Assembly: GCA_002869895.2 (NCBI GenBank)
Contig: NEWP02000014.1
Location: 27,129 to 68,077 of the forward strand
Direction of reading: 5' to 3'
Source: Nitrospira sp. CG24E
GTDB lineage: Bacteria > Nitrospirota > Nitrospiria > Nitrospirales > Nitrospiraceae
Length of the DNA: 40,949 nt
A program made the position numbers and the translations under genes. The notes below the pieces were generated by a model. It was given only the letters and a program-made list of their open reading frames with translations. It made no database searches and was not told where the DNA came from. Shown one piece after another: positions 192 through 10,847 of this stretch (its first letter is position 1; every line of letters begins with the position of its first letter).

Positions 192-959
192 ATGAAGCAG
201 GGAACACGAACCCTCGTGACGCTGAGCGTCACATCGGTATTCGCGCTGACCGTCGGGATGTCTACGGCCTGGGCCAATGAGCCAGGCTACTACGGCAAAG
301 AAGGACACGGAGGCGGCGGGCATAGTTCGATGGGCGGACATGGCGCGGACATGATGCACAACAGCACGGGCCATTTGATCCGGCATCTGCTCAAGCATGA
401 AAAAGACATCGGGCTCACCGCGGAGCAGGTCACGAAACTCAAAGACATGCAGCTTAATCTGGACAAGACCCGTATCAAGACTGAGGCCGATATCCAGGTT
501 GCGGAGCGCGAGTTGAAAGCCCTCACCGAGGATGAGAAATCCGATCTGGCCGCAATCGAAGCCAAGTTGCTCCGTCCCCAGCCTCTTCTGACCGACGCAG
601 ATCTTCTCCTCTATAATCTCATCCGTTTGGCCGTGGAAGACCACTATCTGGTTTTTGCGAGGGTTCCGCTCTGGTCTCTTGTCAGCGTCGAGGCGGATGG
701 AAAGGTTCGGTTGCAGGTGTTGCGACAGATCGCGCTGAAGCAACTCGATTTTGTGTTGGTCCACCCAGGAACGAAGGTTGCCGAGCAGGTTGTGCTGCTT
801 GAGGACGGTTTCCCTCCTCAGCCTCATGAGATCTCACGGAGACAGGATATCCAATCTGTCCTACAGGCAGCCGGCATCACATTGACCATCTTGAAGCCCC
901 ATACCTCCTATACGGTGCTTCAACTGGCTCAGTTGCTTGGCGTCGGTGAGGACGAGTGA
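192..959 (+). CDS. Secreted Spy-like / DUF2726 chimeric protein
   Basis: 255 aa. Residues 1-28 form a Sec signal peptide (cleavage after AWA, before NE). A Gly/His/Met-rich stretch (about 33-60, possible metal binding) and a Spy/CpxP/ZraP-type helical segment with an LTAEQ motif (75-79) follow. At about residue 126 the Spy similarity stops in mid-helix. From LRPQPLLTDAD onward the protein resembles DUF2726, a nuclease-fold-like domain usually seen in cytoplasmic proteins (LDFVLV core near residues 188-193, then a degenerate ELDD/H region and R..D). The start is certain: AGGAGG lies at 181-186, just upstream of the ATG. DUF2726 behind a signal peptide is odd. The junction near base 570 could be a real recombination fusion or an assembly join. 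The function of the fusion is unknown. Confidence 0.8.
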   Translation: MKQGTRTLVTLSVTSVFALTVGMSTAWANEPGYYGKEGHGGGGHSSMGGHGADMMHNSTGHLIRHLLKHEKDIGLTAEQVTKLKDMQLNLDKTRIKTEADIQVAERELKALTEDEKSDLAAIEAKLLRPQPLLTDADLLLYNLIRLAVEDHYLVFARVPLWSLVSVEADGKVRLQVLRQIALKQLDFVLVHPGTKVAEQVVLLEDGFPPQPHEISRRQDIQSVLQAAGITLTILKPHTSYTVLQLAQLLGVGEDE

Positions 960-1007
960 CTGCTCCTGCATATTGCCGACGCGTTGTTTGGCGATAATGA
1001 AATAACG

Positions 1008-1520
1008 CTAGTCGGAAGAGCTGTTGCCGGTTAGTTGGGGGGTCGGCTCCGTATCTCGCATCGGCGCCGCGTCGAGGGCCTTTCTTGCCAGCTCTGCTTC
1101 AGGGCTTTCAGGATATTCATCGATCACTCGTTCGAACATCGTCCGGGCCTTCTCGTGATCCTTCAGTCTGGAGTAACTTTGCCCGATCTTCAAGGTCGAG
1201 GCGGCAAGCTTCGGGCTGAGAGGGTAGTAGGACACAACGTGGTAGAAAGACTTCAGGGCGTCCTTGTATCGCCCTAATCGGTACTGACATTCTCCCATCC
1301 AATATTGTGCGTTGGCTGCCAGCGAAGATTGCCCGTGGAGTTCGAGGAAGAATCGAAAACCAGCCAGCGCTGCCTCGTAGTCCTTGTGTTTGTACTCCTC
1401 CATCACTCGTTCATAGAGGTGCCGAGTGGAATCCTGTTTGTTGGGGGGAGAAGCCAGGGCTAGATTGAGAGAGAACAGGATCGCTACCACTCCTGAGAGC
1501 AGGGTCATCAGCGTCTTCAT
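1008..1520 (-). CDS. YbgF/CpoB-like periplasmic TPR protein
   Basis: About 170 aa. An N-terminal signal peptide (hydrophobic to ALASPP) is followed by three tetratricopeptide-like units: HLYERVMEEYKHKDYEAAL, AQYWMGECQYRLGRYKDAL and LKIGQSYSRLKDHEKAR. This arrangement matches the C-terminal TPR domain of YbgF/CpoB of the Tol-Pal system. The trimerising coiled coil of full CpoB is missing, so it may be a generic periplasmic TPR protein. The GGAGGT Shine-Dalgarno (complement of 1527-1532) touches the first ATG (1526) but sits 7 nt before the second ATG (1520), so the second ATG is taken as the start. No tol or pal genes lie nearby, so the pathway is unconfirmed. Confidence 0.8.
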   Translation of the reverse strand: MKTLMTLLSGVVAILFSLNLALASPPNKQDSTRHLYERVMEEYKHKDYEAALAGFRFFLELHGQSSLAANAQYWMGECQYRLGRYKDALKSFYHVVSYYPLSPKLAASTLKIGQSYSRLKDHEKARTMFERVIDEYPESPEAELARKALDAAPMRDTEPTPQLTGNSSSD

Positions 1521-1532
1521 GGTCATACCTCC

Positions 1533-1865
1533 GTACTGCTCGGCAAGGTCTCGGCACTTTTTCTCTTAATGGGTAAGGCAATCGCCGTGCCACCATGCGA
1601 TGATCCGATACAGCTAAAACCCATGTGAATCCATGAGCTTGGCGCCATTCGAGGTCAGTAGATGTCTCGCACTGTCGCCTGCCTGTCCCCAAGTGAGCGA
1701 CAGATTTGTACGATCTGTGCCGGTGTTTTCCCGCTTGACAGAATGGAGGAGGTAGCTCGTACAGTGGCTTGAGTAAACGGTTTGTGGCCAACGTGACTTG
1801 TATGCGAGCAAATAATGCTGCCCGGTAGCTCAGATCAGGTTCTCCAGAAGAGAACGGTACGGTGA
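1533..1865. other. Gene-free intergenic stretch
   Basis: About 330 bp between the divergent TPR and beta-helix genes. Open frames here have no family resemblance. A TTGACA at 1735-1740 with TACAGT at 1760-1765 has a 19-nt spacer, too long for a convincing sigma-70 promoter. Promoters for both flanking genes must lie here, but none stands out. Confidence 0.4.
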
Positions 1866-1877
1866 ATGGAGTTGGAC

Positions 1878-2666
1878 ATGATGACTGATCCTCCCGCTAG
1901 CCCACTCGGCGGAAAGACCCTGATCGTCGACGCGAAGGACGGTGATTCGTACCCGCGACCCAGCGCAGCATTACTCGATGCAGGCGAATATGACCAAGTC
2001 TTTGTCTGCCCTGGAACCTATGAGGACAAAGTGTTTATCACGGGGCGACCGATTCATTTGGTGGGGGCTGGTCGAGATGCGGTGCAGATTTTTTCCCGTC
2101 GTGGGGGGCCTCTCTATCTCCAGCAGGTTCCGAGTGGTCGCATCTCCGGTATTACGTTTCGATACGTCGGCAGCGATCAGCATTCAGCGATGAACCTGCT
2201 CGACTCTTCTTGTGCGGTGACACAGTGCCGTGCCATGGAGGGAATTTTGTCCGGCGTCGTGATTTATGGTCCGCAATCACGATTGACATTTGTCGAGAAC
2301 GAAGTCTGTGGCAACCGCGAATCGGGGGTCTTTGTGTTTGCCGGGGCACAGCCGAGGATCGCCGATAATGTCTGCAGGGCCAACCATCATTTTGGTATTG
2401 CAGTGCGCGACTCTGGGAGCCATCCGGAACTCGTACGGAACCAGTGCCGAGAGAATATGTTGAGCGGGATTCTGCTTTTTCATCACGCGGCAGGACTTCT
2501 TGTCGACAATAGATGCAGCGGGAATCAGCATTGGGGGTTGGTGATGACTCCTGACTGTAGCCCTATTCCCGATCGTGAGGGGCTCGATACTTCAAACATT
2601 CTGGTCCCTAATCCACGCGGGCCTCTGATTGTGACGGATCAGCCGCTGGGGGACATCGGACGATGA
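1878..2666 (+). CDS. Right-handed beta-helix repeat protein
   Basis: About 262 aa. The middle of the protein repeats the N-x-(C)-x-x-N-x-x-x-G-(I/V) pattern typical of parallel beta-helix (NosD/CASH/PbH1) folds, in four or more rungs from about residue 120 to 225 (for example VENEVCGNRESGVFVF, IADNVCRANHHFGIAV, VRNQCRENMLSGILL, VDNRCSGNQHWGLVM). The N-terminus (TLIVDAKDGDSYPRPSAAL) resembles the opening of pectate-lyase-like, NosD-like or F-box-11-like helices. No signal peptide is visible, so it is probably cytoplasmic. GGAG at 1868-1871 is 6 nt before the ATG at 1878, which favours this start over the ATG at 1866. Enzyme activity cannot be assigned, and no partner gene is apparent. Confidence 0.75.
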   Translation: MMTDPPASPLGGKTLIVDAKDGDSYPRPSAALLDAGEYDQVFVCPGTYEDKVFITGRPIHLVGAGRDAVQIFSRRGGPLYLQQVPSGRISGITFRYVGSDQHSAMNLLDSSCAVTQCRAMEGILSGVVIYGPQSRLTFVENEVCGNRESGVFVFAGAQPRIADNVCRANHHFGIAVRDSGSHPELVRNQCRENMLSGILLFHHAAGLLVDNRCSGNQHWGLVMTPDCSPIPDREGLDTSNILVPNPRGPLIVTDQPLGDIGR

Positions 2667-2782
2667 GCAGATAGATTATCGATGACAGAGGGGATCAGTT
2701 CAGCAAGCACAAAGGCTGAGTCCGAGAGGAGTGCGACCGTGCGACGTAGTTTGCTATCGACCTCGGCCGCGGTATCCGCGCA

Positions 2783-3706
2783 TTATGGAAGCGGATTGGT
2801 CGAGTGAGTTTCTGATACCTGGTGAAGGTGAAATGCGCTGCCGCCTTGCTGCTTCGCTCGATACATAGCTGTGTCTGCATGTTTCAATAACTCGTCGACC
2901 GGGTGATCGTCCTGAGGATAAATCGTAACTCCAATGCTGATGCCAATGGAGATGTGCTGCATCTTCAATTCAAAGGGCGTGGCAATGGATTCCGTGATGC
3001 GGGTTGCCACCATCAGAATATTCTGTTCGGACGTGACTCCCTCAAGAATGATCGTAAACTCGTCTCCACCCATTCGGGCTACGGTATCGACTTCCCTTAC
3101 ACAGGCTTTCAGTCGTTCGGAGACGGTCTTGAGTAGTTCGTCGCCCATATCGTGCCCGAAGGTATCGTTCACCGCCTTGAATCGATCCAGATCGAGGAGC
3201 ATGAGACCCATCGGTTGGTTCAAACGCTTGCTCCGAGCCATCGCTTGAACCAGTCGATCGCGGAAAAGGCTGCGGTTTACTAGACCGGTCAAGTGATCGT
3301 ATTGTGCCAGGTAGGTGAGGTGCTCTTCAGAACGTTTCCGTTCAATGGCATAACGGACTGAACGAGCCAACAGCTCAGGATGGCCTTGACCTTTGACGAG
3401 GTAATCCTGCGCTCCCTGCTGGACCGCCTGAAGAGCCAGACTTTGATCGCTCACGCCGCTCAGGACGACGACGGGGATCGTCGGGCTAGTGGCATGGACC
3501 TGCCTGACTGTCGGGAGACCGAATGCATCCGGTAGTGACAGGTCCAACAGTACGGCATCGAATCGCTCACGGCTCAGAAGTGCGAGCCCTTCTCCCAACG
3601 TTTTCGTCCGTGTAATCTTGAACTCATCGATGCTCCATTCAGTGAGGAGATCCTGTGTGAGCTGAGCGTCGACGTCGTTGTCTTCAACAAGAAGCACGTT
3701 GATCAT
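2783..3706 (-). CDS. Response regulator diguanylate cyclase (REC-GGDEF)
   Basis: 307 aa. The N-terminal receiver has the acidic pair E8/D9, phospho-acceptor D55 (VLLDLSLPD), S83 and K105. A linker helix (about 120-140) precedes a GGDEF domain with D172 (LDLDRFK) and intact GGDEF at 213-217, so it should make cyclic di-GMP from two GTP. The allosteric I-site RxxD (REVD, 204-207) sits five residues before GGDEF, implying product inhibition. No membrane segment or histidine kinase is present, so the cognate kinase must be encoded elsewhere. The type IV pilus genes in the same window are a plausible c-di-GMP-responsive output, but that link is inference. Confidence 0.92.
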   Translation of the reverse strand: MINVLLVEDNDVDAQLTQDLLTEWSIDEFKITRTKTLGEGLALLSRERFDAVLLDLSLPDAFGLPTVRQVHATSPTIPVVVLSGVSDQSLALQAVQQGAQDYLVKGQGHPELLARSVRYAIERKRSEEHLTYLAQYDHLTGLVNRSLFRDRLVQAMARSKRLNQPMGLMLLDLDRFKAVNDTFGHDMGDELLKTVSERLKACVREVDTVARMGGDEFTIILEGVTSEQNILMVATRITESIATPFELKMQHISIGISIGVTIYPQDDHPVDELLKHADTAMYRAKQQGGSAFHLHQVSETHSTNPLP

Positions 3707-3965
3707 CTGACACCCTGGGTCTCGCGTGAGTTTTTGGTCCAGTTCATCGTTGCTAGCCCGGACGACTCGTCTGCGACAAGGCCGTCACTATGAGGAATCG
3801 ATTATAGCTAGGACGCAGGGGAGGATATACAAAATGCGAAAATACGGCTAGGGCCGTTCTTTCCCGGCAAAATACTGACCGCCCCTTGTAAGGACCTGCA
3901 CCAATGAAACTACGCAGGGCGGTCAGAAGAATCACTGCACCACCTGGAATGAAGGCGGCGTGGTT

Positions 3966-4343
3966 TTACCCTACATGGAGTGCTTCAGCCCGTCGACGAA
4001 CTTCTTCGGCCTTTTGAGATTGTCCGAGGTTATCGTAAAGTGAGGCAATATTCGCATGCAAGTGGGACAGGAGCTGTCCCAGCTGTGCTTCCTGTGCGAT
4101 CACGTTCGCTTCCAGCGCCAGTTTCTTTTCCTCACTCCGTCGGAATCGTTCCTCAAGCCGCTGTACAAGCTGGACCCAGCCCTTGACCTTGCCGGAATCC
4201 AAGTCCGGTATGGTCGGCAATGCTTCGGCGCGATCGAGAGATTTTTCGGCTTGATTCATCCAATTAATGAAGATCAAAAAATCACCAAGCGTAATTTTTA
4301 GTGCGGACGAGGCGCCTTCTTCTTCGATAACCAGATCTTCCAT
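3966..4343 (-). CDS. Hypothetical coiled-coil protein
   Basis: 125 aa, family not recognised. The N-terminus is acidic (MEDLVIEEEG). The rest is predicted helical: a segment around FLIFINWMNQAEKSLDRAEALP, then a heptad-like, charge-rich stretch (RLEERFRRSEEKKLALEANVIAQEA) and a C-terminal TPR-like helix pair (HANIASLYDNLGQSQKAEEVRRRAEAL). No signal peptide or membrane segment is visible. The start is well supported by AAGGAG (complement of 4349-4354), 5 nt before the ATG. It stands alone between noncoding stretches. A scaffold or adaptor role is possible but unsupported. Confidence 0.7.
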   Translation of the reverse strand: MEDLVIEEEGASSALKITLGDFLIFINWMNQAEKSLDRAEALPTIPDLDSGKVKGWVQLVQRLEERFRRSEEKKLALEANVIAQEAQLGQLLSHLHANIASLYDNLGQSQKAEEVRRRAEALHVG

Positions 4344-4360
4344 TACAACTCCTTGTGCAG

Positions 4361-4670
4361 GACATTATTCTTAATAGTGGGTGTCAGCTATACGAAATAC
4401 TTCCGCCAAGTCGCCAGCGAACTGCTCTACTGCCGGACGTGAAAAGCGAGCAAGAAAACGAGCCACCTCCTTTCTTGTCTGGTCTTTGGCAGGAAACGGC
4501 AAGCAGGTTCAAGAGTTGGTAACCTATGGGCTACATCATATGGGGTTGGCGAAGTAATACTGTGCCAACAGTGGTATTGTCAAGAGATCCCTAGAGGCAT
4601 TGATACGCAGAGATCTTTTCCAAACTATTCACTGTGGCCGAACTCAAGAGGCAGGGAAAGGAAGCGACAA
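4361..4670. other. Gene-free stretch
   Basis: About 310 bp between the coiled-coil gene and the small lipoprotein gene. No convincing gene, RNA or repeat was seen. Confidence 0.4.
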
Positions 4671-4991
4671 CTATCCTTGAGGAGACAGGGGTGGCACGTT
4701 TGGATAGGCTCCGCGTGGCAGACGTTGAGGACCGATTATTCCTTCGCAGGCATACCCTGGTTCGAAAGGCCAGAGGAGGGATCGACCCTGCCAAGAACCC
4801 CTTACCCGGATCGTGCCGACCGACACTCCAAGCCGGGCTGCTTCTTCGCCTATTGTGGAGAGGCAGCCTTCGTAGGTATATGCGCGGCGACCAAGCATGA
4901 TCGGCTGGCCTGTCTGGCTATGGAACACAGTGTAGGGCTCGGCGCAACCTACCACGAGCAGTGTCATGCTAAGCAGTAGAACTCTCGTCAT
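4671..4991 (-). CDS. Small lipoprotein, unknown function
   Basis: 106 aa. The first 15 residues are a type II signal peptide ending in a lipobox (V13-V14-G15-C16), so the mature protein should be lipidated at C16. The acidic/polar residues E-P after the Cys do not suggest inner-membrane retention. The mature part has two further Cys (in YEGCLS and YACEG) that could form a disulfide, and a proline-rich tail. No known domain is recognised. It is divergent from, and about 500 bp from, the downstream transglycosylase gene. Confidence 0.65.
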   Translation of the reverse strand: MTRVLLLSMTLLVVGCAEPYTVFHSQTGQPIMLGRRAYTYEGCLSTIGEEAARLGVSVGTIRVRGSWQGRSLLWPFEPGYACEGIIGPQRLPRGAYPNVPPLSPQG

Positions 4992-5496
4992 CCGTCCGCT
5001 CGTTTACTAGGGATAGACACGTTGAATACGGTTCCCTCTCCCACGTAAGTCTCACCGGCAAAGATAACAGGGAAATCTGTGTGGACCCGTTCGCAGTATC
5101 TCAGTTTCACCATGATGCCTGCTCTTTCTCGGTCAGACGGGCGGGAGGCCAAAGGTACCATATCCTTTCCCCAGCACGCGAGGGGGCCCCTCGTTTGGGG
5201 GCTTGGGATAGGGGATATTGGGAACCTCCAACAGCATTCTTAACATCCTTCAGCAAACTGCAAAGTGCGGCAAGAGGAACCAAAAAAAGGACCACTCCAC
5301 TCTCATCCCCCTACGAAAGTTGGGATCGACAGGTAATCTTAAGTTATTGAAATTGTGGAGCATGATGTTATGTTTCATTTTCTGTCAGTCGGCATGGAAC
5401 CTGCGCTTACAGCGTCATAGTACGAGCGAAATTTTCGAAGAATCTAAACGGTGCGCCGCTGGGGTACAGAGGTCTTGGCAGAGGGAGGAAGCAAAG
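4992..5496 (+). promoter_or_regulatory. Long leader/intergenic region with candidate promoter
   Basis: About 500 bp without a credible gene. A long open frame begins at 5218, but its N-terminal 93 codons look non-coding and lack a ribosome site. A candidate sigma-70 promoter is TTGAAA (5347-5352), 16 nt, TATGTT (5369-5374), leaving a leader of about 120 nt before the transglycosylase ATG at 5497. Confidence 0.3.
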
Positions 5497-6198
5497 ATGA
5501 AAAGGGTCGAGATTCAAACCGAACGATATAGAGAAGAAGCACAGCTCCTGACCGTTGGCTTTAAGGGCTTCTCCATGCTCCTCATGTCCCTGATTGTGAT
5601 GCCGATGGCGCTTTCAGTACCCTTTGCGCAAGCTGGTACACCGGCCTCTGGATACGATGGCCCTAAGGATCTGGGAAGCCGAATAGATGTGACAACAGGC
5701 AAGTCTGTCGCAGCAGTCCGCCACAAGGCACGGTATCACCGTGGTTTGGCAGATCTAGAGCTTGAGCATGCGGTCAATCGTGCGGCTCAATTGCACCATG
5801 TTCAACCGGCCTTGCTCCTTGCGGTGATCAAGGCTGAGTCTTCCTTTAATCCGATCGCGATTTCGAAGGCAGGAGCGGTAGGGCTTATGCAGTTGATTCC
5901 GGAAACCGCTATCCGGCACGGTGTGCGCAACCTCTACGATACGAATGATAACATCGCTGGTGGGGCCAAGCACCTGCGCTATCTCCTAGACCGGTTCCAC
6001 GGAAACACCCGATTAGCCTTGGCAGCCTATAACGCGGGTGAACGCAAGGTGGATCACTATGGACAGATCCCACCCTATAAAGAGACACAGGATTATGTAA
6101 AAAAGGTGCTTGTATACTACCGCAGCTACAAGAAGGATGGTTGGATCATGCCGGTGGTGATGCCTGCCTCCTCTATACACGCAGGCCGTCCGTACTAA
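5497..6198 (+). CDS. Lytic transglycosylase (SLT domain)
   Basis: 233 aa. This enzyme class cleaves the MurNAc-GlcNAc bond of peptidoglycan with 1,6-anhydro product formation in the periplasm. An unusually long charged n-region precedes a signal peptide (hydrophobic core about 25-43, cleavage after AQA near 46). The SLT domain spans about 86-210 with catalytic Glu114 (IKAESSFNP), GLMQLIPETA (129-138), the substrate-groove motif AAYNAGE (176-182) and an ETQDYVKKVLVYY end. The ATG at 5497 follows GAGGGAGG at a normal distance and directly precedes the signal peptide, so the 93 upstream in-frame codons are rejected. It belongs to the family 1 group (Slt70/MltC/MltE-like); which member cannot be told. 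Confidence 0.92.
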   Translation: MKRVEIQTERYREEAQLLTVGFKGFSMLLMSLIVMPMALSVPFAQAGTPASGYDGPKDLGSRIDVTTGKSVAAVRHKARYHRGLADLELEHAVNRAAQLHHVQPALLLAVIKAESSFNPIAISKAGAVGLMQLIPETAIRHGVRNLYDTNDNIAGGAKHLRYLLDRFHGNTRLALAAYNAGERKVDHYGQIPPYKETQDYVKKVLVYYRSYKKDGWIMPVVMPASSIHAGRPY

Positions 6199-6279
6199 TC
6201 GATTGCTCCGTGGGTGTCGGAAGAACGAAGCAGGTGGATAGTCAGGCATCTGCTATCAGACGGATCTCCGAGTGGGCGC

Positions 6280-6642
6280 TTACCGAGGTGTCTCAAGAAC
6301 GGCAATCAGTGCCCGGTAGGTCAGCTCACGAGTTCTGGCCTTCGACAATGGCAGGTCACTGCTGTTTATATCCAACCACACACGTTCTGTTACCTGGGCA
6401 CGAGCGTCGTTACACAGTCCCCACATCTGATGGAGAAACCCGTCCGGCAATCCAACTTGCATCCCTTCGGATTCGATGCGATCGTCCAGAATGGCCAACA
6501 AGTCGGACAGGGCCTGATCCGACCGATAGGGTGTTGCGGAAAAGCCGAAGGAGGCATGGGCCGCCATCTCTTGTTCCGCTTGCACGACCAGATCGCTCAT
6601 GTATTCTTTGAGTAGGCCTACTACATGACCGGATAACGCCAT
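6280..6642 (-). CDS. Hypothetical protein
   Basis: 120 aa starting MALSGHVVGLLKEYMSDLV. No family is recognised. It appears all-helical and soluble, with no signal peptide. AAGGAG lies 6 nt before the ATG at 6642, which decides the start over the longer in-frame alternative at 6690. It is convergent with the transglycosylase gene, 81 bp away, with no obvious terminator between them. The palindrome at 6741-6756 lies about 100 nt upstream and could regulate it. Confidence 0.65.
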   Translation of the reverse strand: MALSGHVVGLLKEYMSDLVVQAEQEMAAHASFGFSATPYRSDQALSDLLAILDDRIESEGMQVGLPDGFLHQMWGLCNDARAQVTERVWLDINSSDLPLSKARTRELTYRALIAVLETPR

Positions 6643-6729
6643 GCGGTTCTCCTTCCCTCGCATTATGCGGATCTGTGGGATAGGGAGCAAGAATCGTCGC
6701 GAAGTTAAGACGAGTAAAGCAACTCACTA

Positions 6730-7415: not shown

Positions 7416-8312
7416 ATGAGCTCTGTCGCGTATCGCCCCGATGGGCCCGCCCAAGATAATGCTTGGAAGGAAGTATTTCAGCAGTGGGACAATATCCCAT
7501 TTCTGACCGTTCATGTCATGTGTCTTGGGGCTTTCCTGACCGGATTTCAACCGGAGTGGCTTCTGTTAGCCATCGGCAGCTATTATCTAAGAATGGTTGG
7601 CGTTACGGCCGGCTACCACCGCTATTTCTCCCATAGGTCGTACAAGACCAGCCGGGTATTTCAGTTTCTGCTGGCGTTTCTGGCCATGACCTCTGCCCAA
7701 AAGGGTGTGCTCTGGTGGGCGGCGCACCACCGGCACCATCACAGATATTCAGACCGGCAAGAAGACTTCCATTCCCCGCTGCAGCGGGGATTCTGGTTCT
7801 CTCACGTCGGCTGGACCCTGTCAGAAAAATATATGCAGGCAGATTTGAGTCTCGTAAAGGACTTCGCCCAATACCCTGAAATTTCCTTTCTCAACCGGTT
7901 TTACTTTATCCCGCCGGCTCTCTATGGCCTGCTGATCTATATGATCTGGGGGTTCCCGGGCTTGATCTGGGGCTTTTTTATTTCAACGACCGCACTGTAT
8001 CATTGCACGTTCTTCATCAATTCCCTGACGCACATGGTCGGCCGGATCAGGTATCGGTCCGGCGACGGCAGTCGAAATAGTTTTATTCTCGCGATTCTCT
8101 GCTGCGGAGAAGGCTGGCATAACAACCACCATTACTATCAATCGGCTGTCAATCAAGGCTGGTTCTGGTGGGAAATAGACTTTACCTATTACACATTAGT
8201 CGTCCTTTCATGGCTTGGGATCGTATGGGATTTGAGAGCCCCTCCTGAACACATCAAAGCCGGCACTATTGTCGCAGAGAGTGCCAATACGACCAATACG
8301 ATAGGACAGTAG
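7416..8312 (+). CDS. Acyl-lipid/acyl-CoA fatty acid desaturase
   Basis: 298 aa integral-membrane di-iron desaturase of the delta-9/stearoyl-CoA type. It introduces a cis double bond into a saturated acyl chain using O2 and two electrons. All three histidine boxes are present: HRYFSH (68-73), HRHHH (105-109) and GEGWHNNHH (231-239). Four or so hydrophobic spans flank them (about 30-55, 82-96, 165-200, 255-275). It heads a same-strand group with the Cfa-type methyltransferase (37 bp downstream) and the FAD enzyme (5 bp after that). A desaturase is what such a group would need to supply the monoene substrate. Regiospecificity cannot be read from the sequence. The ribosome site is weak, and the start overlaps the stop of a 28-codon upstream frame. 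Confidence 0.93.
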   Translation: MSSVAYRPDGPAQDNAWKEVFQQWDNIPFLTVHVMCLGAFLTGFQPEWLLLAIGSYYLRMVGVTAGYHRYFSHRSYKTSRVFQFLLAFLAMTSAQKGVLWWAAHHRHHHRYSDRQEDFHSPLQRGFWFSHVGWTLSEKYMQADLSLVKDFAQYPEISFLNRFYFIPPALYGLLIYMIWGFPGLIWGFFISTTALYHCTFFINSLTHMVGRIRYRSGDGSRNSFILAILCCGEGWHNNHHYYQSAVNQGWFWWEIDFTYYTLVVLSWLGIVWDLRAPPEHIKAGTIVAESANTTNTIGQ

Positions 8313-8349
8313 TTCATCGGTCGGGCCATCAGGAAGGCACGGTTTCAGA

Positions 8350-9498
8350 ATGCAGGCACAACTTCAGTCAACAAGGACGATCCTTCCCATGAAACAGAAA
8401 CAGGTCATTCAGCAATTGCTCGATAAGGCGGTGGTGCAAATCGACGGCAGCCAGCCTGGGGATATCCAGGTCCACAACGATGGACTCTACAACCGTGTCT
8501 TGACCGAGGGTTCATTGGGACTGGGCGAGTCCTATATGGACGGATGGTGGGATTCGGTGCAGCTCGATGAGTTCTTTTCAAAAATTCACAGCGCCAATCT
8601 CGACGATACGGTCGTCGACAAGCGCCTGATTTACAATGCGCTCAAAGCCCGTGTTTTCAATATGCAAAACAAGCGGCTGTCCAAGAGAGTGGCGCATGAG
8701 CACTACGATTTGGATACGGAGTTTTATGAGAAAATGCTGGGCCCAAGCATGCAATACACCTGTGCCTACTGGAAACGGGCGCAGACGCTGACCGAGGCAC
8801 AGGAGCACAAGCTCGACCTGGTCTGTCAAAAACTGCAACTTCGTAAGGGCGAACGTGTACTCGAACTTGGATGTGGATGGGGAGGCTTTGCCCGCCACGC
8901 AGCCACTAAGTACGGCTGTTCAGTGGTGGCCTATAATATTTCCTCCCAGCAGGTCGCATACGCACGTCGCTGGAATGCCGGCCTTCCTGTCGAAATCATT
9001 CAGGACGACTACCGGACGGCTACAGGTGAATTCGATAAGGTGGCGGCGATCGGTCTGTGCGAGCATGTGGGGTACAAGAACTATCGCACGCTTATGGAAA
9101 CCGTTCACCGCACGTTGAAGCGGCGAGGTCTGTTTTTGCTCCATACGATCGGCAACAATAAATCGGTGCTGACGTCCGATCCCTGGTTCGACAAATATAT
9201 TTTCCCAGGCGGCATGCTTCCCTCGGTTGCGCAACTCAGTACTTCGATGGACGGACTGTTCGTGCTGGAAGACTGGCACAATTTCGGCCCCGATTATGAC
9301 AGAACTCTCATGGCCTGGTACCACAACGTGAATCTTCATTGGGATGAATTCAAGTCCAAGTTCGACGAGCGCTTCCATCGGGCCTGGCACTACTATCTCC
9401 AGTCTCTCGCCGGAGCATTCCGAGCCAGAAGAATCCATCTATGGCAAGTGGTGATGTCCAAAGATGGCATCTTGGGCGGCTATGAGCCGGTTCGATAG
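8350..9498 (+). CDS. cfa: Cyclopropane-fatty-acyl-phospholipid synthase-type methyltransferase
   Basis: 382 aa, the same length as E. coli Cfa and co-linear with it. It transfers a methylene/methyl carbon from S-adenosylmethionine to the double bond of a phospholipid acyl chain. Visible motifs are MQYTCAYW (134-141, active-site Cys), SAM motif VLELGCGWGGFA (170-181), LCEHVGYKNY (236-245), LLHTIG (263-268), YIFPGG.LPS (283-292) and EDWHNFGPDYDRTLMAWY. Its position between a desaturase and a DHCR24-like oxidoreductase suggests that the product could be a methylene/methyl-branched chain rather than, or as well as, a cyclopropane. An alternative ATG at 8389 is possible; neither start has a strong ribosome site. 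Confidence 0.93.
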   Translation: MQAQLQSTRTILPMKQKQVIQQLLDKAVVQIDGSQPGDIQVHNDGLYNRVLTEGSLGLGESYMDGWWDSVQLDEFFSKIHSANLDDTVVDKRLIYNALKARVFNMQNKRLSKRVAHEHYDLDTEFYEKMLGPSMQYTCAYWKRAQTLTEAQEHKLDLVCQKLQLRKGERVLELGCGWGGFARHAATKYGCSVVAYNISSQQVAYARRWNAGLPVEIIQDDYRTATGEFDKVAAIGLCEHVGYKNYRTLMETVHRTLKRRGLFLLHTIGNNKSVLTSDPWFDKYIFPGGMLPSVAQLSTSMDGLFVLEDWHNFGPDYDRTLMAWYHNVNLHWDEFKSKFDERFHRAWHYYLQSLAGAFRARRIHLWQVVMSKDGILGGYEPVR

Positions 9499-9503
9499 AC
9501 CAC

Positions 9504-10847
9504 ATGATTTCTGTTGAAGAGTACGCCGGTAAACGCGCACATGTGCTCAGGTCCCTCCCTGGGACCGGCGCAACCGAGCCCCTCGCCCTTGCCAAATCGT
9601 CGTCCAACCTGTTTCGGCACCGTGCGCAGAAGTGCGTGCATCAGCTGGATCTGCGCGCGTTCAACCATGTGCTGCACATCAACGAAGAGGAACGGTATGC
9701 GGAAGTCGAAGGTCTGACGACCTATGAGGAACTGGTTCGGGAAACGCTCGCCTTCAATTTGATGCCGGCCGTCGTGCCTCAGCTCAAGACCATCACCATC
9801 GGTGGGGCCATTGCCGGAATCGGAATCGAGTCCTCATCCTTTAAATATGGTTTTGTGCATGAGACGATGCAGGAACTCGAGGTATTGTTTCCCGATGGAG
9901 AGGTCGTGGTGGCCACCCGTGAGAATGAACACCGGGACCTATTTTTTGGCTTTCCCAACTCCTACGGCACACTCGGCTATGCACTGCGGGTCAAGATTGC
10001 CCTCATCCCTGTCAAGCCGTTCGTCAAGCTGACGCATCACCGGTACACGGACCTGGAATCCTGCTTTCAGGCGATGGCACGCCTATGCAAAGACGGGACT
10101 GTGGATTTCGTAGACGGGACGATGTTTCACGGCCAAGAACTCTACATTACGACCGGCCAATTTGTTGACCGTGCGGAATGGCTCAGCGACTATACCTATC
10201 TGCAGATCTATTACCAATCGATTCCGAGCAGAACGACGGACTATCTGACGATCCACGATTACATTTGGCGTTGGGATACCGATTGGTTCTGGTGTTCCAA
10301 ACATTTTCTCCTGCAATATCCGCTGATGCGGCGCATGTGGGGAAAGGAACGGCTGCGTTCGTCTGTGTATTGGAAGCTCTGGAAACGATTTAATGCATGT
10401 CCCGTCACCAATCTCATGGCCAGGGCGATCGAAGGACGACAAGAGTCTGTCATCCAGGATGTCGAAGTGCCGATTGAACAGGCCCCTCGGTTCGCACAGT
10501 TCTTCAATGAGCAGATCGGAATCAAGCCCGTCTGGATCTGTCCGGTGGCCCCATTTGATCCATCTGCGGCCTATGCGTTGTATCCGATGAATCCCCAGAA
10601 GCTCTATGTCAATTTTGGCTTTTGGGACTCGGTGAAGACGACACACGACGATGGCCATTTCAATAAGATGATAGAGGCCAAGGTGAGTGAGCTTGGCGGC
10701 CATAAGTCGCTCTATTCAAACTCGTACTATTCGAAAGAAGAATTTGGACGATTGTACAGTGCAAGCGAGTACCTCCGATTAAAGGCCAGATATGACCCCA
10801 AGGGTAAACTCAAACATCTCTATGAAAAGTGCGTGCTCAAACAGTGA
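9504..10847 (+). CDS. FAD-binding oxidoreductase, DHCR24-like
   Basis: 447 aa. The N-terminal PCMH/VAO-type FAD domain carries TIGGAIAGIGIESSSFKYG (98-116), VLFPDGEVV and PNSYGTLGY (151-159), closely resembling delta-24 sterol reductase (DHCR24). The C-terminal half has aromatic-rich, DHCR24-like sequence (WRWDTDWFWCSKHF, GKERLRSS, YVNFGFWDSV). DHCR24 reduces an isolated C=C with NADPH/FAD. The actinobacterial BfaA/TmsA relatives reduce 10-methylene fatty acyl chains made by a Cfa-like methyltransferase. It begins 5 nt after the methyltransferase stop, implying translational coupling and a joint pathway. Sterol reduction is an unlikely alternative, as no sterol genes are nearby. Confidence 0.85.
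   Translation: MISVEEYAGKRAHVLRSLPGTGATEPLALAKSSSNLFRHRAQKCVHQLDLRAFNHVLHINEEERYAEVEGLTTYEELVRETLAFNLMPAVVPQLKTITIGGAIAGIGIESSSFKYGFVHETMQELEVLFPDGEVVVATRENEHRDLFFGFPNSYGTLGYALRVKIALIPVKPFVKLTHHRYTDLESCFQAMARLCKDGTVDFVDGTMFHGQELYITTGQFVDRAEWLSDYTYLQIYYQSIPSRTTDYLTIHDYIWRWDTDWFWCSKHFLLQYPLMRRMWGKERLRSSVYWKLWKRFNACPVTNLMARAIEGRQESVIQDVEVPIEQAPRFAQFFNEQIGIKPVWICPVAPFDPSAAYALYPMNPQKLYVNFGFWDSVKTTHDDGHFNKMIEAKVSELGGHKSLYSNSYYSKEEFGRLYSASEYLRLKARYDPKGKLKHLYEKCVLKQ

Follow-up and report, generated by a model that had tools for sequence, protein, structure and literature searches.

What does a bacterium of the genus Nitrospira make with a fatty acid desaturase, a methyltransferase related to the cyclopropane fatty acid synthase (Cfa) of E. 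coli and an oxidoreductase that binds flavin adenine dinucleotide (FAD), when the genes for all three lie one behind the other on the same strand? The question is raised by a stretch of 40,949 nucleotides from Nitrospira sp. CG24E (here called the window, that is, the whole stretch of DNA that was analysed), whose source genome (G000; Nitrospiraceae) measures 3.45 Mb and is 98% complete. This genome carries an amoA fragment and amoB (contig C58), so the organism is a complete ammonia oxidiser (comammox), and the first-pass annotation of the window was right to suspect a Nitrospira. The answer that we favour, with a probability of roughly three in four, is that the trio makes mid-chain methyl-branched fatty acids, by means of a reductase of the BfaA type and a methyltransferase of the E. 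coli Cfa lineage that uses S-adenosylmethionine (SAM). The features on which the argument turns are the following:

7416..8312, plus strand: membrane fatty acid desaturase, 298 amino acids, first gene (PF00487, His boxes, conserved position)
8350..9498, plus strand: E. coli-type Cfa-family SAM methyltransferase, 382 amino acids (PRK11705, match to 6bqc, tree)
9055..9060, plus strand: codons for Leu236-Cys237, preceding the catalytic Glu238 of the window Cfa (alignments)
9504..10847, plus strand: BfaA-family FAD-binding oxidoreductase, 447 amino acids (PF01565, homology to a bfaAB-locus protein, fold)

The desaturase and cfa are separated by 37 bp, and cfa and the FAD gene by 5 bp. All three genes, already named in the first-pass annotation, are borne out at these coordinates by open reading frames, Pfam and PRK11705 matches and conserved co-occurrence; a scan for promoters and terminators around the operon gave a result no better than that obtained with shuffled sequences.

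The FAD protein provides the strongest clue. It matches Pfam PF01565 (FAD_binding_4; 55.9 bits) and has a VAO-type fold (predicted model with a pLDDT confidence score of 86), its nearest solved structures being cytokinin dehydrogenase and DprE1. A family-profile scan of the genome collection returned at least 587 confirmed relatives, and the best 80 of these include many actinobacterial proteins, 49–54% identical, most of which are followed immediately by a Cfa-type gene. A homologue, at up to 56% identity, is present in 195 of 201 genomes of the family to which Actinomadura is assigned together with Streptosporangiaceae, and comparisons with proteins of these two groups gave 50–56%. The proteins of the window and of the actinobacteria fall in one tree. 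The homologue of Tsukamurella (46% identical), to which the homology is full-length, is surrounded by recR, ybaB, an amidase, an SRPBCC protein, the FAD oxidoreductase itself, a SAM methyltransferase and the gene for DNA polymerase III gamma/tau (dnaX), and this is the published neighbourhood of bfaAB (Machida et al. 2017, PMC5660069, Figure 2 legend). Since that homologue sits at an authentic bfaAB locus, the window enzyme is, by homology and locus context, a BfaA-family protein, and its activity would be that of the family, an NADPH-dependent reduction of a methylene branch to methyl: bfaAB leads to 10-methylstearate in E. coli (PMC5660069, PMC7791843), and BfaA reduces the 10-methylene double bond (PMC7791843).

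A pathway can be proposed on this basis. The desaturase would place a cis double bond in a C16 or C18 acyl chain, and the Cfa-type enzyme would transfer the methyl group of SAM to that double bond on the phospholipid. Instead of ring closure, a proton would then be lost from the added methyl, possibly to the same bicarbonate base that serves ring closure, to leave an exocyclic methylene, which the flavoenzyme, if it behaves as its family does, would reduce to a methyl branch. Methylation by BfaB and reduction by BfaA are established reactions (PMC7791843). The type of pathway is well supported by homology; that the window operon forms a methylene, and where on the chain the branch would lie, we infer.

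The genes travel together. In a set of 175 Nitrospiraceae genomes, 25 combine the FAD gene with the E. coli-type Cfa gene, one has the FAD gene only, one the Cfa gene only and 148 neither (Fisher p ~5e-28, relatedness not corrected for), and the arrangement is not due to chance. Both exceptions are assembly effects, given that the FAD-only genome (G141) has a run of N at the place where the Cfa gene is expected and the Cfa-only genome (G123) has a contig end. The spacing between the Cfa and FAD matches is 7–18 bp in all ten Nitrospiraceae loci measured, and the full trio is present in 23 of the 175 genomes, with Nitrospira sp. KM1 and N. japonica NJ1 among the carriers. Two further genomes appear to preserve what deletions left of the operon: in G133 the desaturase stands before the final ~86 codons of the FAD gene, and in G054 it is accompanied by 22 terminal codons of that gene and a small Cfa fragment (L201 3584-4718 and L199 2768-3981). 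Among the papers searched, none was found that reports bfa genes in Nitrospira or gives the fatty acid composition of KM1, of N. japonica or of any comammox strain.

The first enzyme of the proposed route matches PF00487 (FA_desaturase, 55.5 bits) and has three conserved His boxes (H68RYFSH, H104HRHHH, H235NNHH). Its orthologue lies directly 5' of cfa in the 23 genomes with the full trio. A second case of a desaturase associated with bfa genes is seen in two bfaAB loci of Amycolatopsis (L068 7214-8023 and L093 7293-8093), where a desaturase 32–34% identical lies just downstream.

The methyltransferase is where the interpretation becomes contentious. It scores 252.5 bits against Pfam CMAS and 535 bits against the NCBIfam equivalog PRK11705 (cyclopropane fatty acyl phospholipid synthase), well above the cut-off of 400, and it aligns with E. 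coli Cfa (6bqc) at 404 bits and 50% identity. The predicted model matches 6bqc with TM scores of 0.86/0.95, E. coli Cfa being the closest fold, and the protein retains Cys138 and Glu238, His265 and Tyr316, the counterparts of the residues that hold bicarbonate (Glu239, His266 and Tyr317 in E. coli numbering; PMC11387697). All this would suit an ordinary cyclopropane synthase accompanied by a FAD enzyme that acts on the double bond of another lipid or of an isoprenoid, in which case only cyclopropane lipids would be made. We regard this explanation as unlikely, because the Cfas that accompany BfaA homologues form a clade of their own in the sampled set (100/98) and have altered residues beside the catalytic Glu, and because the same reductase family pairs with two other Cfa lineages, one of which is the lineage of the proven methylene-forming BfaB.

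These lineages were resolved in a tree of 51 proteins of the Cfa superfamily, in which the partners of BfaA make up three groups, every one of them set off by a supported branch: the actinobacterial BfaB partners (100/100), the proteobacterial partners (97/81) and the E. coli-type partners (100/99). The window enzyme is 30–34% identical to BfaB and groups with the E. coli Cfa clade, the BfaB clade being separate with 100/100 support, so its identification as a BfaB was rejected. The analogy with actinobacterial BfaAB drawn in the first-pass annotation thus holds for a BfaA-family enzyme beside a SAM methyltransferase of the Cfa superfamily, and fails for the methyltransferase itself. The 100/98 clade, which is distinct from the sampled canonical Cfas (E. 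coli, Halomonas, Leptolyngbya and others), contains proteins from Nitrospira, Acidobacteria, a myxococcal metagenome-assembled genome (MAG) and two MAGs that carry the unverified labels Magasanikbacteria and Woesearchaeota. The reductase tree does not follow the type of partner: reductases with E. coli-type partners are scattered over several separate parts of it, which indicates that the methyltransferase partner has been exchanged; since BfaA homologues adjoin three Cfa lineages, the constant element is the reductase and not a common descent of the pair. By its place in the tree, the methyltransferase of the Nitrospira operon is a recruit from the E. coli Cfa lineage with an origin separate from that of BfaB. 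What is new, on the evidence of these phylogenies, is that BfaA-type reductases adjoin methyltransferases of three separate Cfa lineages (BfaB, proteobacterial and E. coli type).

The residues that precede the catalytic Glu distinguish the paired enzymes further. Among cyclopropane synthases of solved structure, Met-Phe occupies this place in the Cfas of E. coli, A. aeolicus and L. acidophilus, and Ala-Phe in PcaA and MmaA2; the window enzyme has Leu236-Cys237 where E. coli has Met237-Phe238. In E. coli numbering, the paired enzymes keep Cys139, Glu239, His266 and Tyr317, and positions 237–238 read Leu/Ile/Val-Cys, with a few Leu-Thr, in the E. coli-type partners, Leu-Thr in BfaB, Thr/Val-Leu (one Met-Leu) in the proteobacterial partners and Val/Met-Met in Patescibacteria. 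In a set of 61 sequences less than 80% identical to one another, with the N. moscoviensis protein counted as unpaired, Phe238 occurs in none of the 36 paired enzymes but in 16 of the 25 unpaired; Met237 is present in all 25 unpaired enzymes, against 3 of the 36 paired (33 lack it). Fisher values for these counts carry no correction for relatedness. The supported branches force at least four independent changes at position 237. The E. coli-type and proteobacterial partners also share Gly116 to Ala, Thr197 to Asn, residue 203 to Val and Arg231 to Lys. It is plausible, from these alignments, that the altered Met-Phe marks enzymes that form a methylene rather than a ring, and the changes may affect the outcome of the reaction.

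The residue changes also bear on the proposal that the FAD enzyme reduces or opens a cyclopropane ring made by Cfa, so that the methyl branch arises via the cyclopropane. Its appeal, an indirect one, is that an E. coli-type Cfa and a BfaA-type reductase would then make sense side by side. We consider it very improbable: we know of no case in which a flavin reduces an unactivated cyclopropane, and the changes in Cfa are left without explanation. Moreover, the known BfaA reduces the double bond of a 10-methylene chain (PMC7791843).

Returning to the methyl-branching pathway, several points weigh against it. The carriers of the trio are known from their genes and not from lipids or biochemistry; the window Cfa passes a curated cut-off for true cyclopropane synthases with every bicarbonate ligand in place; the pairing is in itself no proof that the product of the Cfa is what the reductase uses; the link to an experimentally proven BfaA runs through locus context; and the desaturase is not invariably part of the unit, since two genomes (G063 and G122) have the cfa-FAD pair without an adjacent desaturase.

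A broader proposal goes beyond the window, namely that the BfaA family was combined with Cfa-type methyltransferases of at least three separate lines of descent (in actinobacteria, in proteobacteria and in Nitrospira and acidobacteria) to give pathways for mid-chain methyl branching, and that Met-Phe was changed each time, switching the product from cyclopropane to methylene; we judge the chances that it is right to be evenly balanced. If it is, what many enzymes now labelled cyclopropane synthases make could be predicted from two residues, and a signature separating methylene-forming from ring-forming Cfas would correct many annotations and supply new enzymes for the engineering of branched oils.

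How does the operon relate to the systems already described? Like actinobacterial bfaAB (tmsAB), it joins a FAD oxidoreductase of the same family to a SAM methyltransferase of the Cfa superfamily that keeps its bicarbonate ligands; it differs in the lineage of that methyltransferase, in having the order methyltransferase-FAD where the actinobacterial loci have FAD-methyltransferase (A-B), and in including a desaturase gene in the unit. The order methyltransferase then flavoprotein is shared with tmpBA of Desulfobacter, Marinobacter and Thiohalospira (PMC7791843), whose Cfa-type enzyme forms a methylene, as the window Cfa is proposed to do. TmpA, however, resembles geranylgeranyl reductases and is not homologous to BfaA, whereas the second enzyme of the Nitrospira pair is a FAD_binding_4 protein of the BfaA family, and membership of the tmpBA type was therefore rejected. 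With E. coli Cfa the window enzyme shares its fold and ligands, and it differs in Leu-Cys for Met237-Phe238, in its BfaA-family partner and in its subclade.

The UfaM-UfaD-UfaO pathway offers another comparison, because there too a Cfa-type methylase, UfaM, acts together with a flavoprotein on the acyl chains of phospholipids (PMC7380195), and the trio could by analogy make a conjugated or furan fatty acid. This is the least probable of the explanations considered, and was rejected on gene content: UfaD is a NAD-FAD protein of the phytoene-desaturase type (PMC7380195), a family other than FAD_binding_4, and the Pfam domains found in the operon and in the genes beside it include no candidate for UfaD or UfaO; the product proposed here is also different. 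An amine-oxidase-type gene near a Cfa gene is found instead in N. defluvii, which lacks the trio (L248 6408-10520), together with an SDR and an NTF2-like protein, in a cluster that resembles those of the UfaM/UfaD type and whose Cfa has Gln in place of the bicarbonate ligand His266.

Methyl-branched fatty acids serve as biomarkers of Nitrospira lineages, and 11-methyl-16:0 exceeds 20% of the fatty acids of N. moscoviensis, N. bockiana and N. calida, amounts to 0.8% in N. marina and is not listed for N. defluvii (PMC3660363, Table 3). The first-pass annotation supposed that the operon might explain the 11-methylhexadecanoate of N. moscoviensis. For that species the explanation fails. In the complete genome of N. 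moscoviensis (G055), the FAD family profile detects no BfaA homologue even at E 0.001, there is no Cfa of the window type (best relatives 34–35% identical) and there is no orthologue of the desaturase (best match ~50% identical). With all three genes absent from a genome whose owner has more than 20% 11-methyl-16:0, the operon cannot be the source of that lipid and was rejected as such. The regiochemistry is a further obstacle: BfaB converts Delta-9 chains to 10-methylene chains, adding at the distal carbon (PMC7791843), a rule by which Delta-11 chains ought to yield a 12-methyl product, and 11-methyl from Delta-11 is the outcome of UfaM (PMC7380195) and does not fit BfaB simply.

A different cluster of N. 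moscoviensis (G055:C1, ~4,143.6-4,147.0 kb; L247 9674-13029) is a candidate for the formation of its 11-methyl-16:0. It contains an HDAGH-type desaturase of 354 amino acids, a CMAS-like methyltransferase of 301 amino acids that lacks Cys139, and a Cfa with Cys238; none of the other 174 Nitrospiraceae genomes holds a close match to the 301-residue protein (E 1e-40).

If the methyl-branching pathway proposed for the window is real, comammox bacteria and some Nitrospira of lineage II should make branched chains from genes now annotated for cyclopropane synthesis, and the tracing of nitrifiers by their lipids could be read from genomes.

Other arrangements of these families were encountered. A plasmid of Streptomyces virginiae (L293 2437-5134) has in a row a desaturase, a protein of the nitroreductase/quinone-reductase family and an E. 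coli-type Cfa with Met237-Phe238, which is the layout of the trio with another kind of reductase, and on a Leptolyngbya plasmid (L291 1061-5095) an amine oxidase and another FAD oxidoreductase precede an E. coli-type Cfa. BfaA-family genes in gammaproteobacterial MAGs (L041, L044, L053, L057, L058, L067 and L070) had no Cfa-type gene in the flanks fetched. Finally, the source genome itself holds a second Cfa-type gene on the minus strand (L250, G000:C58, region 641-6665; gene at 5388-6665), ~3.5 kb from amoB, and relatives of this kind, 37–41% identical to the window Cfa, are present in many genomes of the same genus.

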